Source: a virus. Taken from it: 64,000 nucleotides of DNA. The notes under the pieces were generated by a model. It had not been told where the DNA came from. It was given only the letters and a program-made list of their open reading frames with translations, and did no database searches. Numbering within the stretch: position 1 is the stretch's first letter; each line of letters begins with the position of its first letter. The position numbers and the translations under genes are program-made. Below, in pieces: positions 1,189-5,577 of the stretch. The DNA is taken from positions 1 through 64,000 of the IMG/VR virus record IMGVR_UViG_3300017963_000228, one strand, 5' to 3'.

Positions 1189-1510
1189 TAAGTTTTTTAT
1201 TAATAAAGTTAGTGAAAAAACACATACCCCTGAAGAAGCATTGACAATATTGCTGGAACAAAGGAATAAAGCTCCATTTGTAAATGAAAAAAACAAATGG
1301 TTTGAGATCAATGAATATTTACCACCAATAAAGTCAATACAAATAATGACTTTTGAACGCAATAGCAGTTATGTAATTCATGATTGTGTCAATTCTTGGG
1401 CTTTTCTACAACACTACCTTTTAAATAAATATTATTACACTGATAAAACTGGATGGTCTAAAAGAATATCTCATTTTATGATTTTGGGTGAACCCGATGT
1501 TGATAAGTGA
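1185..1510 (+). CDS. DUF551-like small protein, possibly expressed by -1 frameshift
   Basis: The C-terminal 75 residues (NKWFEINEYLPP ... ISHFMILGEP) match the pattern of DUF551 phage proteins: a W near the start, LPP, and a final ITHW/PLPEP-like motif. The reading frame is open far upstream but has no good start of its own; the ATG at 1082 lies inside the previous gene and would encode a lysine-rich shadow. An ATG at 1185 overlaps the upstream stop. Reading from it crosses T TTT TTA at 1193-1199, and a -1 slip there enters this frame to give about 108 residues. A lost T in the homopolymer would look the same. The start is therefore uncertain. Confidence 0.5.
1193..1199 (+). other. Candidate -1 frameshift heptamer UUUUUUA
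   Basis: In the frame set by the ATG at 1185, the codons AGT TTT TTA contain the heptamer T TTT TTA, which has the X XXY YYZ form of a classical -1 slippery site. Slipping back one base leads directly into the DUF551-like frame. No strong downstream hairpin is visible, so a natural indel or a homopolymer sequencing error remains equally possible. Confidence 0.35.
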
Positions 1511-2564
1511 AATAATACTCCACAATTTTCAAATTCATAAAGACCTACATATTAAGTTACAGCCGGGAGTCAATGTCATTCTTGGTGATACTGATGCTGG
1601 TAAGTCAGCAATCATCAGAGCATTGAAATTGATTCTTGATAATCAACCCCGTAGTGGTGAATCCATATTTCAAAATAAACACAATAAAGATCCTCTTAGC
1701 ATTGAAATCGTACATGCTAATGGTAGTCGTGTTAAAAGGGAAAAGCGCCGATACTATCTTAATGGAGAATTATTAAAAGCATTCGGTACAGATACCCTTG
1801 CGCCTATCAAAGAACTATTTCCACTAAAGGATATCAATTGGCAACGACAATTAGAACCTCATTTTCTTGTTCTTCAAACTGGTGGTGGTGCAACTAAATT
1901 ATTAAATGCTTCTACTGGAATGGAAGATCAAGAACTATTAATCAAAGAAGTTAAAACGAAGATAACTGAATCAAAATCCAATATTAAACGAATCAGTAAA
2001 AATAATGAGGAACATAAGGAAACTATAGATCGATTGCAAAATGTTAATCGATTTATGGATGATGCTCTATATATAAAAGCCGAAATAGATCAATATTATG
2101 ATCTTACTAATACTAATAAAGAATTAAGAATAATATTAGATAAAATCTATCAATGTCGTAAAAATAGAATCAATATTAAAATAATAAATGATCGATTAAA
2201 AGATATTACAACCATTGAAAGTGGAATTAAATCAATCAAAGGTAAAAAAGCAATAATTGCTGGTTTACAGGATTTACTCAATCACTTAAAAGAAGCACAA
2301 ATAGAAGTTCATAATAAACGTATCTATAACAAGCGTCTTCACTCCATAAATTTGATAATTGAGAAACACAATCAATTTTTCAAAACTACTTCAATAATAA
2401 AACAATTATTCAAGCTAATCCAACAAATCCAACAAATCAAAAAGGATAAAATTGCTGCTAAAAAGGAATACAAACGATTAGAGAAAAAATTGAATAATTA
2501 CCTTCTTGAGTTAGGCTATTGTCCCACTTGTGGAAGATCTATAACGGAGGAACACAAATGCTAA
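1497..2564 (+). CDS. Rad50/SbcC-like ATPase, N-terminal half ending at a zinc hook
   Basis: Residues 1-120 form the N-terminal ATPase lobe of an SMC/Rad50-type protein, with Walker A GDTDAGKS at about 30-37 and the LHNFQIHKDLHI strand that precedes it in SbcC. Residues 140-335 are predicted coiled coil. The protein then stops at YCPTCGRS (Cys 342 and Cys 345), the Rad50/SbcC zinc-hook motif. There is no Walker B, signature or descending coil. Those parts occur in a separate gene at 5002-5577, with the SbcD-like nuclease gene in between. With a partner it should form the DNA-bound ATPase of an end-processing complex. ATG 1497 is preferred to GTG 1488 because of GGGTGA at 1486-1491. Confidence 0.85.
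   Translation: MLISEIILHNFQIHKDLHIKLQPGVNVILGDTDAGKSAIIRALKLILDNQPRSGESIFQNKHNKDPLSIEIVHANGSRVKREKRRYYLNGELLKAFGTDTLAPIKELFPLKDINWQRQLEPHFLVLQTGGGATKLLNASTGMEDQELLIKEVKTKITESKSNIKRISKNNEEHKETIDRLQNVNRFMDDALYIKAEIDQYYDLTNTNKELRIILDKIYQCRKNRINIKIINDRLKDITTIESGIKSIKGKKAIIAGLQDLLNHLKEAQIEVHNKRIYNKRLHSINLIIEKHNQFFKTTSIIKQLFKLIQQIQQIKKDKIAAKKEYKRLEKKLNNYLLELGYCPTCGRSITEEHKC
2546..2550 (+). promoter_or_regulatory. Shine-Dalgarno GGAGG fixing the SbcD-like start
   Basis: GGAGG lies seven bases before the ATG at 2558 and inside the end of the upstream ATPase gene. It settles the start against an in-frame ATG at 2519, which would add 13 residues copied from the hook-coding region. Confidence 0.8.
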
Positions 2565-3490
2565 TTCTACATGTTGGGGATGGTCATCTTACCGGAAAGA
2601 ATCCAATAGCAAGGGTAGATGATATTGTAGAAGTTCAATTTAATAAATGGAAGGAAATTGTACGCATAGCCAATAAATTTAACTGTCCTATTATTACACC
2701 GGGAGATATCTTAAATGTTCCAATTATTGCGAATTCAATTCTTACACGTTTTGGTAGCATTCTGCAAGCTCTTGAGCATCCTATCTTTTTTACTTGGGGT
2801 AATCATGATCTTATGTATCACTCCCTTGATATGTGGAATCGCACTTCTTTGGGTGTTCTTTGGTCTAACAGCCCAAAGGTTAAACACATCTCCCAATTCC
2901 AAAGAGATTATGGAATAGCATGGGATTACATTGATTGGAATCAAGAATTAGTCAGTAATAATTCTCCTTTTTTACTTACACATAAAGCGGTTGTCTACAC
3001 CAAACAAATTGGTAAAAATTCTTGGATTCTTGATGATCCTGATTTTGCCTATAATATTGATGACGATAAATTCTTGGAGAAATACAAATTAATTATTTGT
3101 GGTCATTGGCACCGTCAATATCAATTTAAAAGAAAAAATACCACTGTTATCAATGCTGGTGTTATTTTAAGAAGAACAATAGAAGAAAAAGATATTCCCT
3201 GTGTTAATCTGATTAATCTGGATAATATGTTACGTACAAAAATTAAGTTAAAGTCAGCTAAACCTACAAGTGAAGTTATATCCAAAAAACACCTAAATGA
3301 AAAAATACATATTGTACAACATGATATCAAACAATTTGTTGATTCATTAAGAAATACCAAAATAAAAAATTCAGCTAAATTCCTTGATAATTTAATGAAC
3401 CTATTAGATAACCATGAATTAAATCCAGCAATTGAAAATATATTACGACAAATGATTGCTCAAGTTATGGAGAAGAAAGGGGGGCAATAA
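2558..3490 (+). CDS. SbcD/Mre11-like metallophosphoesterase nuclease
   Basis: All calcineurin-type phosphoesterase motifs are present in order: HVGDGH (residues 5-10), GDI (49-51), GNHD (81-84), a THKAV histidine near 142, and GHWH (182-185). This is the metal-binding set of SbcD/Mre11 nucleases, which trim DNA ends and hairpins together with the SbcC/Rad50 ATPase. The C-terminal third is helical and could be the partner-docking segment. The gene overlaps the N-half ATPase gene by seven bases, and the C-half ATPase gene lies about 1.5 kb downstream, so the three probably form one complex. The 310-residue length is somewhat short for the family. Confidence 0.9.
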   Translation: MLILHVGDGHLTGKNPIARVDDIVEVQFNKWKEIVRIANKFNCPIITPGDILNVPIIANSILTRFGSILQALEHPIFFTWGNHDLMYHSLDMWNRTSLGVLWSNSPKVKHISQFQRDYGIAWDYIDWNQELVSNNSPFLLTHKAVVYTKQIGKNSWILDDPDFAYNIDDDKFLEKYKLIICGHWHRQYQFKRKNTTVINAGVILRRTIEEKDIPCVNLINLDNMLRTKIKLKSAKPTSEVISKKHLNEKIHIVQHDIKQFVDSLRNTKIKNSAKFLDNLMNLLDNHELNPAIENILRQMIAQVMEKKGGQ

Positions 3491-3559
3491 TAGGAACACA
3501 TTTTAACTTGAATGATTGAGATTTTGACTTTTTAAAAATTTTGGGAGGAGAAATTCAAA

Positions 3560-3811
3560 ATGTTAGAAATTGTACGTAAGGCAGTTAAAATCGAAGATAA
3601 GTACTGGTCTGTTTACAGTAACACACGTCATGAAGAAGGAGACTTTAAGGCGCAATTTCATTGTGCTATCTGTGATCCTGAAGGAAAGAAATTTTATCCT
3701 AAACTTGTTAAAGTAGATAGTTTTCTCGTATGTGGACACTGTGTTATGAACATGACTAAGGCATTAAATAAAGCAACCATCAGTGATTGTAAAAAAGGAG
3801 AAAGGCATTGA
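3560..3811 (+). CDS. Small hypothetical protein with two CxxC pairs
   Basis: This 83-residue protein carries CAIC near residues 35-38 and CGHC near 58-61. That spacing would suit a single zinc ribbon. A GGGAGGAG Shine-Dalgarno lies just upstream of the start. A gap of about 70 bases separates it from the SbcD-like gene, one of the few gaps in this arm. It was not recognised as a known family; a role as a nucleic-acid-binding accessory factor is only a guess. Confidence 0.65.
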   Translation: MLEIVRKAVKIEDKYWSVYSNTRHEEGDFKAQFHCAICDPEGKKFYPKLVKVDSFLVCGHCVMNMTKALNKATISDCKKGERH

Positions 3812-3942
3812 AATCAGAGGAACAGATCAGAAGGAAATTAGAAGAAGTTAAAGAAAAAAGAAGTAACTGTCCATTTCGATTCATTGAAATTTACAAAGAA
3901 AAAATTAGAACATTACAATGGGTATTGGAGGAAAAAAAATGA
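3808..3942 (+). CDS. 44-residue charged helical protein, TTG start
   Basis: This short gene starts with TTG at 3808, seven bases after GGAG at 3797-3800, and overlaps the stop of the previous gene. It ends in an ATGA overlap with the thymidylate synthase-like gene. The product is charged and helical, and ends with a TLQWVLEEKK-type motif. Similar 'LKWVL' endings occur in many tiny phage proteins of unknown function. The tight couplings at both ends are the main reason to accept it as real. Confidence 0.6.
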   Translation: MKSEEQIRRKLEEVKEKRSNCPFRFIEIYKEKIRTLQWVLEEKK

Positions 3943-4691
3943 AACCTGTTTTTATTGAAGCAAGAGATCTAAACGATGCTTATTTCACATTACTTTGGGA
4001 ACTGTGGAATCATGGACATGAATACAAAATTGATGCAGGATCTTTTGCTGGATCAAAACGATTGGAATTCTATTATGCAGCAGGATTCATTCGTAATCCT
4101 CATGCAAGACCATTAGCACCTATAATGCCACAAGGTATTCCTCCGACAACCACTGATGAAAAGCTGGAACAGGATTATTTTCCAAACTATCTGATGGACC
4201 CCTTTCTTTCAAAAAATGAGCATTACCGTTATTCTTCATGGATTAATGGAACAGAACACTACTCTGAATTTGGCCGAATGTCAGAGCATCCGACAGATGA
4301 AACACCTATTGAATGGGTAATTCGACACTTCAAAGAAAAAGGATATCATAATAATCATTGCTACATTAACATTGGTAATGTTGATTCTGGTTTCAATTAT
4401 GATATTCCCTATACTAATGAAGCTAATCGTTTAACATCACCTTGTTTTCGTGGAATTGATTTTAAAATAAAAGATGAAATGCTTTTAACATCCGTTGTTT
4501 TTCGTTCATGGGATCTCTATGCTGGTTTCCCTGAAAACATGGGTGGATTCACATTGCTCAATGAATACGTAGCTGGCGAACTAAACATTCAACCGGGACC
4601 ACTATCCTTTGCATCGCAAGGTCTTCATGCTTACGACTATCAAATAGAACCAATTGCTGCTATTCTAAATAAAGAATACAGTCTATTCTAA
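3939..4691 (+). CDS. Thymidylate synthase homologue (ThyA superfamily)
   Basis: The C-terminal half carries the thymidylate synthase core: catalytic Cys 169 in TSPCFRGIDF, the phosphate-binding FRSWD at 188-192, GFPEN with Asn 200, and GLHAYDY with His 230 and Tyr 232. The RSWD and glHaYdy wording is closer to archaeal-type than to E. coli-type enzymes. An Asn rather than an Asp in GFPEN favours dUMP over dCMP as substrate, which is an inference from the known specificity switch. The ATG at 3939 is preferred to 3918 because GGAGG at 3927-3931 precedes it. A 23-bp duplication alters the C-terminus (see the repeat entry). Confidence 0.82.
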   Translation: MKPVFIEARDLNDAYFTLLWELWNHGHEYKIDAGSFAGSKRLEFYYAAGFIRNPHARPLAPIMPQGIPPTTTDEKLEQDYFPNYLMDPFLSKNEHYRYSSWINGTEHYSEFGRMSEHPTDETPIEWVIRHFKEKGYHNNHCYINIGNVDSGFNYDIPYTNEANRLTSPCFRGIDFKIKDEMLLTSVVFRSWDLYAGFPENMGGFTLLNEYVAGELNIQPGPLSFASQGLHAYDYQIEPIAAILNKEYSLF

Positions 4692-4705
4692 ATAAAGAAT
4701 ACAGT
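4661..4705 (+). repeat. 22-bp tandem direct repeat at the 3' end of the thymidylate synthase-like gene
   Basis: The 22-base unit beginning TATTCTAAATAAAG occurs at 4661-4682 and again at 4684-4705, a period of 23. The first copy is read in frame; the second is out of phase and supplies the stop codon at 4689-4691. Deleting one unit would extend the protein from NKEYS into KEPHIR before a stop near 4725. A recent slippage duplication has therefore probably replaced the original C-terminus. Confidence 0.85.
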
Positions 4706-4750
4706 AAAGAACCACATATTCGATAACCCAAAGGCGATTTGGAGATCATC

Positions 4751-5005
4751 ATGCCAACTGAGGAAGAAAAAAATATTACTGAAATAAAAGAAATGCTTGA
4801 ACAGAAAAAAGCAATGTCTGACAGAGCTGAAGTGCAAGAAGAATTCCTTCTTAAACAATTAAAGGAAACGTTTGATGTTAATTCAGTTGAAGAAGGAGAA
4901 GAATTAATTAAACAATTAACAGAAGAAGCAGAAGAAAACAAAAAGGAAAACAGTAAACTATTTAACGATCTCATAGATCGCTTAGAAAAAGATGGAATAT
5001 TATGA
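4751..5005 (+). CDS. Small acidic coiled-coil protein
   Basis: This 84-residue protein is almost entirely glutamate- and lysine-rich heptad-like helix with no cysteines. GGAG at 4741-4744 is six bases before the ATG at 4751, which is preferred to an upstream TTG at 4739. It overlaps the start of the C-half Rad50-like gene by four bases (ATGA). Its position, immediately before the separated ATPase half, makes it a candidate for part of the coiled-coil arm or a linker in that complex, but this is inference from context only. Confidence 0.65.
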   Translation: MPTEEEKNITEIKEMLEQKKAMSDRAEVQEEFLLKQLKETFDVNSVEEGEELIKQLTEEAEENKKENSKLFNDLIDRLEKDGIL

Positions 5006-5577
5006 TAGACACAATCATAGATCGTTTAAATAAGTTACAAACTGAATACAATCTTGCAAAAAAGAAGTATTCAAAAAATGTCATAGCCATAGCAAAGGAG
5101 AAAAAGTATATTGAACAACTGGAATTATGCAAAGCTATTCTGATAAAAGTTGGAGAAGATACCCAAAAAGAGCTAAAAAAGTATATCGAAGAAACAACCA
5201 CCATGGCACTACAAACCGTGTATGGTGATGACTATGAATTCCTGATAGAATTTGACTATACCAAACGAGATCAGATTGAAATCCGCTTTTTTATCAAGCA
5301 TTTAGGAATCAAATTAGAACCCCGAAAAGATACTTGCGGTGGCGGCGTAATTGATGTATGCTCATTTGCGCTTCGCATGATATGTCTAACGTTAGAAGAA
5401 CCCGATGTTGCTGCGGTTTTAATCCTTGATGAACCATTTAAAAATGTTTCTGCTAAATATGTTCCCTTGGTTGGACAAACAATTGTTGACATTGCTGATT
5501 TATTAAATCTTCAAATCATTATGGTTACGCACATCGAAGGATTTATTGAAACCGCTAACAATTTAATCTACATCTAA
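5002..5577 (+). CDS. Rad50/SbcC-like ATPase, C-terminal half
   Basis: Residues 1-65 are coiled coil. They are followed by a signature-like TCGGGVIDVCSFALRM (111-126), Walker B AAVLILDEPF (137-146) and an H-loop THIEG (176-180). This is the C-terminal lobe of a Rad50/SbcC ATPase without Walker A. The N-terminal lobe is a separate gene at 1497-2564 that stops at the zinc hook. Together they would restore the usual order: lobe, coil, hook, coil, lobe. The start overlaps the coiled-coil gene before it. The product presumably pairs with the N-half and the SbcD-like nuclease. Confidence 0.82.
   Translation: MIDTIIDRLNKLQTEYNLAKKKYSKNVIAIAKEKKYIEQLELCKAILIKVGEDTQKELKKYIEETTTMALQTVYGDDYEFLIEFDYTKRDQIEIRFFIKHLGIKLEPRKDTCGGGVIDVCSFALRMICLTLEEPDVAAVLILDEPFKNVSAKYVPLVGQTIVDIADLLNLQIIMVTHIEGFIETANNLIYI

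Follow-up and report, generated by a model that had tools for sequence, protein, structure and literature searches.

The DNA analysed here (the window) is a 64 kb stretch, positions 1 to 64,000, of the 88.7 kb IMG/VR virus record IMGVR_UViG_3300017963_000228, and it starts with a plus-strand gene set of replication type. An earlier note on this DNA had recognised a Rad50/SbcC-like ATPase divided over two genes. Our analysis agrees with this, as the open reading frames and motifs are as described there and profiles of the two products match Rad50 N and C fragments. The two genes, called here N-half and C-half, are separated by 2,437 bp that encode an SbcD/Mre11-like nuclease, an 83-aa CxxC protein, a thymidylate-synthase-like protein and an 84-aa helical protein (Table 1). 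The nuclease gene overlaps the stop of the N-half gene and the small helical protein gene overlaps the start of the C-half gene. The earlier note had also considered that a full-length homologue might lie elsewhere in the genome; the 88.7 kb record holds no second copy of either half.

Table 1. Features of the split ATPase module in the window.
Feature	Position	Strand	Basis
N-half: Rad50-type N-lobe, long helix, half zinc hook, 355 aa	1497..2564	+	PF13476 2.9e-12
Walker A GDTDAGKS, residues 30-37	1584..1607	+	G30, G35, K36 invariant in 107 sequences
N-half basal coil, residues 143-199, predicted to pair with C-half helix	1923..2093	+	DCA band
N-half distal coil, residues 200-339, C-half return arm absent	2094..2513	+	AF2 helix 181-339; covariation register
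Half zinc hook CPTCG, residues 342-346	2520..2534	+	C342, C345 invariant in 107 sequences
SbcD/Mre11-like nuclease, 310 aa	2558..3490	+	PF12850 7.8e-8, PF00149 1.7e-7; phosphoesterase motifs
Small helical hairpin protein, 84 aa, conserved family without Pfam name	4751..5005	+	AF2 helices 4-41, 46-80, pLDDT 97
C-half: short coil and Rad50-type C-lobe, 191 aa	5002..5577	+	3qkr_B profile match; phrog_15167 1.4e-29
ABC signature region GGGVIDVCSFALR, residues 113-125	5338..5376	+	R125 invariant; G113-G115, D118 at least 90%, 95 sequences
Walker B and D-loop VLILDEPFKNV, residues 139-149	5416..5448	+	D143, E144 invariant
H-loop T176-H177	5527..5532	+	H177 at least 90% conserved

The N-half carries the N-lobe of a Rad50/SbcC ATPase, with Walker A and a Q-loop (Q118). 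Its profile matched Rad50 3aux (1.1e-18) and also the P. furiosus Rad50 fragments, with a weak match to the Rad50 hook 6zff (0.0018). The AF2 model (pLDDT 86) consists of the N-lobe and two helices, 143-179 and 181-339, running to the hook, and its best Foldseek matches were 9a9j_A and 1f2u (Rad50 N fragments). The protein ends with the tail CPTCGRSITEEHKC, stopping 10 residues past CPTC, and it matches phrog_16465 (annotated as 'exonuclease'). The family is divergent, with a mean column identity of 19% among 107 aligned N-halves. The N-halves of three related loci (L017 5187-6551, L018 5338-6669 and L019 5049-6395) have an additional four-Cys ribbon in the N-lobe, at about residues 83-110.

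In the C-half we read the motifs CGGGVIDVCSFALR, LILDEPFKNVS and MVTH, and its profile matched the Rad50 C-fragment 3qkr_B at 6.1e-13. The doubt raised earlier, that the second half might lack a true ABC C-lobe, is thus answered by a C-lobe with signature, Walker B and H-loop; residues of the hook are absent. The corresponding family, phrog_15167, is annotated as 'ATPase'. The single-sequence scores of both halves are modest and their homology rests on the profile matches, which are clear.

The nuclease of the window has all the motifs of a canonical Mre11/SbcD phosphoesterase (DxH, GD, GNHD, H and GHxH), and a single-sequence phmmer search of it against the PDB gave no match. Across its family GNHD is replaced by GQHD in 101 of 157 sequences and GHxH by GDNH in 135 of 157, so the active-site chemistry may differ in much of the family. 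The small helical hairpin protein belongs to a family with a conserved G and the motif F-G-C-x-T-x-E-E-A, and a Foldseek search with the hairpin structure returned no significant matches. At least one Cys is found in 158 of 235 members; the Cys of the motif is conserved in 92 of 166 and is Val in the window protein.

The thymidylate-synthase-like gene (3918-4691; PF00303 4e-7, phrog_160 2e-11), located between the nuclease and the small-protein genes, was present only in a near-identical contig (L006) and in L007 among the related loci compared first. The 83-aa protein (3560-3811), with the CxxC motifs CAIC and CGHC and no significant family matches, is also found in these two loci. Upstream of the N-half, positions 14-628 encode a PDDEXK/RusA-like nuclease (PF24608 5e-9, phrog_244 4e-9), which is upstream in several related loci too.

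Distribution and gene order

A single IMG/VR scan with C-half alignments recovered 438 stretches encoding a C-half relative. After duplicates were removed, 248 distinct C-half loci remained, drawn from IMG/VR and from named phages; sampling of the IMG/VR loci overlaps, and the N-terminal starts were set mechanically. None of the 248 loci had fused halves, and no ORF was matched by both half profiles, so the single polypeptide with both lobes that defines Rad50/SbcC was not found. A search of phage genomes for the split pair, proposed in the earlier note, gave the same split in hundreds of contigs, and the DNA-break-processing ATPase Rad50 is encoded in separate pieces by tailed phages of many kinds, hundreds in all. 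The pair occurs in four named phages, Bacillus phage vB_BboS-125, Microcystis phage Mvi-JY20, Tunturiibacter phage Tunturi_5 and Microbacterium phage Magritte, and the recorded hosts of phages with the module span several bacterial groups. Three matches came from bacterial or archaeal assemblies, each on a MAG contig.

The module is also conserved in content and order. Among 218 loci with at least 3.5 kb of upstream sequence, the N-half was present in 208, the nuclease in 214 and the small protein in 213, and the order N-half, nuclease, small protein, C-half was kept in 208 of 210 complete cases, which extends to the family the earlier observation that the nuclease and a small coiled-coil gene lie between the halves. 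The small-protein and C-half genes overlap or abut in 150 of 235 loci, and the N-half and nuclease genes in 111 of 213. When no N-half was adjacent, it was found elsewhere in the record in seven of nine IMG/VR records. Furthermore, the CxxC hook expected at the coil apex of Rad50/SbcC is present as a sequence motif, at most 20 residues from the end, in 203 of 210 complete N-halves, with CX4-5C-like variants in three more.

Covariation between the chains and a proposed complex

To locate the contacts between chains we aligned the four proteins across 202 paired loci and analysed covariation by mean-field DCA and reduced-alphabet mutual information (MI). Of the 30 strongest DCA pairs that link the N-half coil to the C-half helix, 20 fell in one antiparallel register (i+j 191-203; 1.8 expected), led by the pairs 194-6, 187-13, 170-23, 148-47 and 153-44. 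This antiparallel band had a z of 13.4, compared with a maximum of 5.3 over 53 random re-pairings and with 4.8 in the parallel direction; covariation separates contact from shared ancestry only in part and re-pairing removes both, and the contrast between antiparallel and parallel is the main guard. With reduced-alphabet MI the same register was equalled in 0 of 200 re-pairings. Top-ranking DCA pairs that join C-half residue 28 to N-half residues 188, 212, 213, 218 and 260 were taken to reflect a hub in the alignment, and we omitted residue 28 from the DCA register test. Some DCA pairs, such as L110-V139 and L21-I173, also appear to couple the N-lobe to the C-lobe.

The nuclease covaries with the same region: its C-terminal helices gave 6.0 with C-half residues 42-60 (maximum 3.9 in 88 re-pairings) and a weaker 4.7, against 4.1, with the N-half coil. 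The matching site is where Mre11 binds Rad50 in T. maritima (summarised in PMC3175470), and for this placement on the coil base, expected of Mre11/SbcD, the evidence is the covariation itself. The N-half to C-half and nuclease covariation together suggest that the head and the base of the coil, not the hook, are where the halves come back together. In this regard, the crystal structures 1f2t, 1ii8 and 3qkr of P. furiosus Rad50 contain the N and C parts as separate chains, which gives an in vitro precedent for assembly in trans.

In this register the first residue of the C-half lies opposite N-half residue ~199, some 140 residues before the tip, and consequently N-half residues ~200-339 have no return arm. 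The arms are of about 195 residues in the N-half and about 60 in the C-half helix, so the matched antiparallel arms that run from head to hook in Rad50/SbcC are not found here. The part of the earlier claim that placed the cut at the hook holds for the N-half, which stops just past CPTC; taken as a whole, the split is better seen as a loss of the entire distal return arm than as a symmetric cut.

All these data make it likely, in our view, that the module is a Mre11-Rad50 machine that tailed phages assemble in trans. In the proposed complex, the N-half and C-half would fold into one ABC ATPase head, as homology and the covariation between lobes indicate, and would be held by an antiparallel coiled coil of C-half residues 1-62 on N-half residues ~143-199. 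The SbcD-like nuclease would dock on the coil base through the C-terminal helices that covary with it, and two such units may dimerise on ATP, as is known for the family. The N-half beyond residue ~199 would extend as an arm of about 140 residues without return strand, with the half hook CPxCG at its tip.

The small hairpin protein could act on this arm. Reduced-alphabet MI places its helix 1 antiparallel on N-half residues ~212-250, just beyond the C-half helix (0-2 of 200 re-pairings as high), and we take this weak evidence as a lead that the arm, unpaired here, is probably braced by the small protein. A second reading, to which we give somewhat less than an even chance, keeps the head as proposed and lets the distal arm pair with a second N-half or stay as a single helix, with the small protein working elsewhere, for example as a regulator or DNA-end adaptor. 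Such a reading agrees with the DCA, where no significant register between the N-half and the small protein appeared in the 202 loci, and with the length of the hairpin helices (~35-38 residues), which are too short for an arm of 140 residues; the MI register speaks against it, as does the near-constant presence of the small gene, usually abutting the C-half gene. Helix 2 gave no significant register on the N-half with either reduced MI or DCA. Somewhat less likely, and doubtful to us, is a three-piece Rad50 in which the small hairpin is the distal part of the return coil, now a separate protein that attaches to the arm of the N-half like a clip. If so, the arm would be modular rather than a fixed double coil, and it could be assembled, opened or shed under regulation.

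Relation to known systems and likely role

The phage module shares with Mre11-Rad50/SbcCD, including T4 gp46-gp47, the ABC head motifs, an antiparallel basal coil, a CxxC hook and a calcineurin-like nuclease docked at the coil base. It differs in that its Rad50 is made of two, possibly three, chains, lacks the distal return arm and has an added small hairpin protein. Since neither the single-chain architecture nor the matched arms were found when tested, it is not a canonical Rad50. The usual view is that Rad50 needs an unbroken double coil to pass signals between its hook and its head. A widespread and conserved Rad50 that lacks the return arm would allow a direct test of which part of the arm matters and of whether the hook alone tethers. 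The P. furiosus fragments (1f2t, 1ii8 and 3qkr) similarly build one head and basal coil from two chains, but they are engineered and hookless, whereas the phage split is natural and conserved. Mre11/Rad50 fusions are an already known rearrangement (PMC3175470), and in viruses the Mimivirus R555-type fusions rearrange this same module, although in the opposite direction, with the nuclease fused to the ATPase (PMC3175470). We found no description of a natural split Rad50 or SbcC in the full text of open-licence PMC papers, and the earlier impression that a complex with this layout had not been described agrees with the literature searched.

By analogy with T4 gp46/gp47 and SbcCD, the module likely acts as an ATP-driven nuclease and tethering machine in resection and recombination at the ends of replicating phage DNA. 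This role fits the surrounding replication region, since genes for a DnaB-like helicase, a DEAD/ResIII helicase, a CHC2-type primase zinc finger and a 5'-3' exonuclease neighbour the module. It appears improbable that the module is instead a defence or counter-defence ATPase-nuclease of the Lamassu, PARIS, Gabija or MADS type. The PADLOC profiles AriA, LmuB, GajA and mad3 do match the ATPase lobes, but most of these matches are confined to the Walker A region that such ATPases share, no named effector is matched by the nuclease and the module sits among the replication genes of the phage. In addition, scans of the four module proteins gave no match to partner genes or effectors of these systems. 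The replication and recombination reading would give a likely function to phrog_16465 and phrog_15167, annotated until now as unrelated genes and not as halves of one enzyme, and to the nameless small protein. The split design is widespread, for a repair machine that is usually made as a single chain.

The half zinc hook

For the Rad50 hook, PMC5093744 gives -20.4 kcal/mol for the bare CXXC tetrapeptide, compared with -5.8 for the beta-hairpin and just -2.1 for the coil. Given the value of the tetrapeptide core, the half hook of the N-half should still bind zinc. No further Cys or His was found in 152 of 208 N-half tails, so that a four-ligand zinc site needs a second chain, as in Rad50. The half hook belongs to the N-half alone and most likely links two N-halves, which would be joined through one Zn2+ and four Cys, so that a ring is closed or two DNA ends are tethered. 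The tail of the window protein has an additional H and C, and with them it could form a single-chain zinc site (C2HC).

The earlier note had the two chains rejoining through the zinc site or the coil tips, and our data leave this very little room. It would suit the position of the cut, which in almost every relative follows CxxC by a few residues, but the C-half is hookless and its helix covaries with N-half residues 143-199, far from the tip, and the small protein offers a single Cys, conserved in about half of its family, instead of a CxxC. Practically negligible is the idea that the split is an artefact (a frameshift in sequencing, an intron, an intein or programmed recoding, with one chain as the true product), which has nothing in its favour except the two separate ORFs and is contradicted by hundreds of contigs with the identical split and other genes in between, by the halves of Tunturi_5 and Magritte lying more than 90 kb apart by record coordinates, and by an N-half that stops at the hook with no intein-like extension. 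Lastly, the divergent N-half of Magritte (L267 1501-2553) does not end in CxxC and represents a natural hookless variant.
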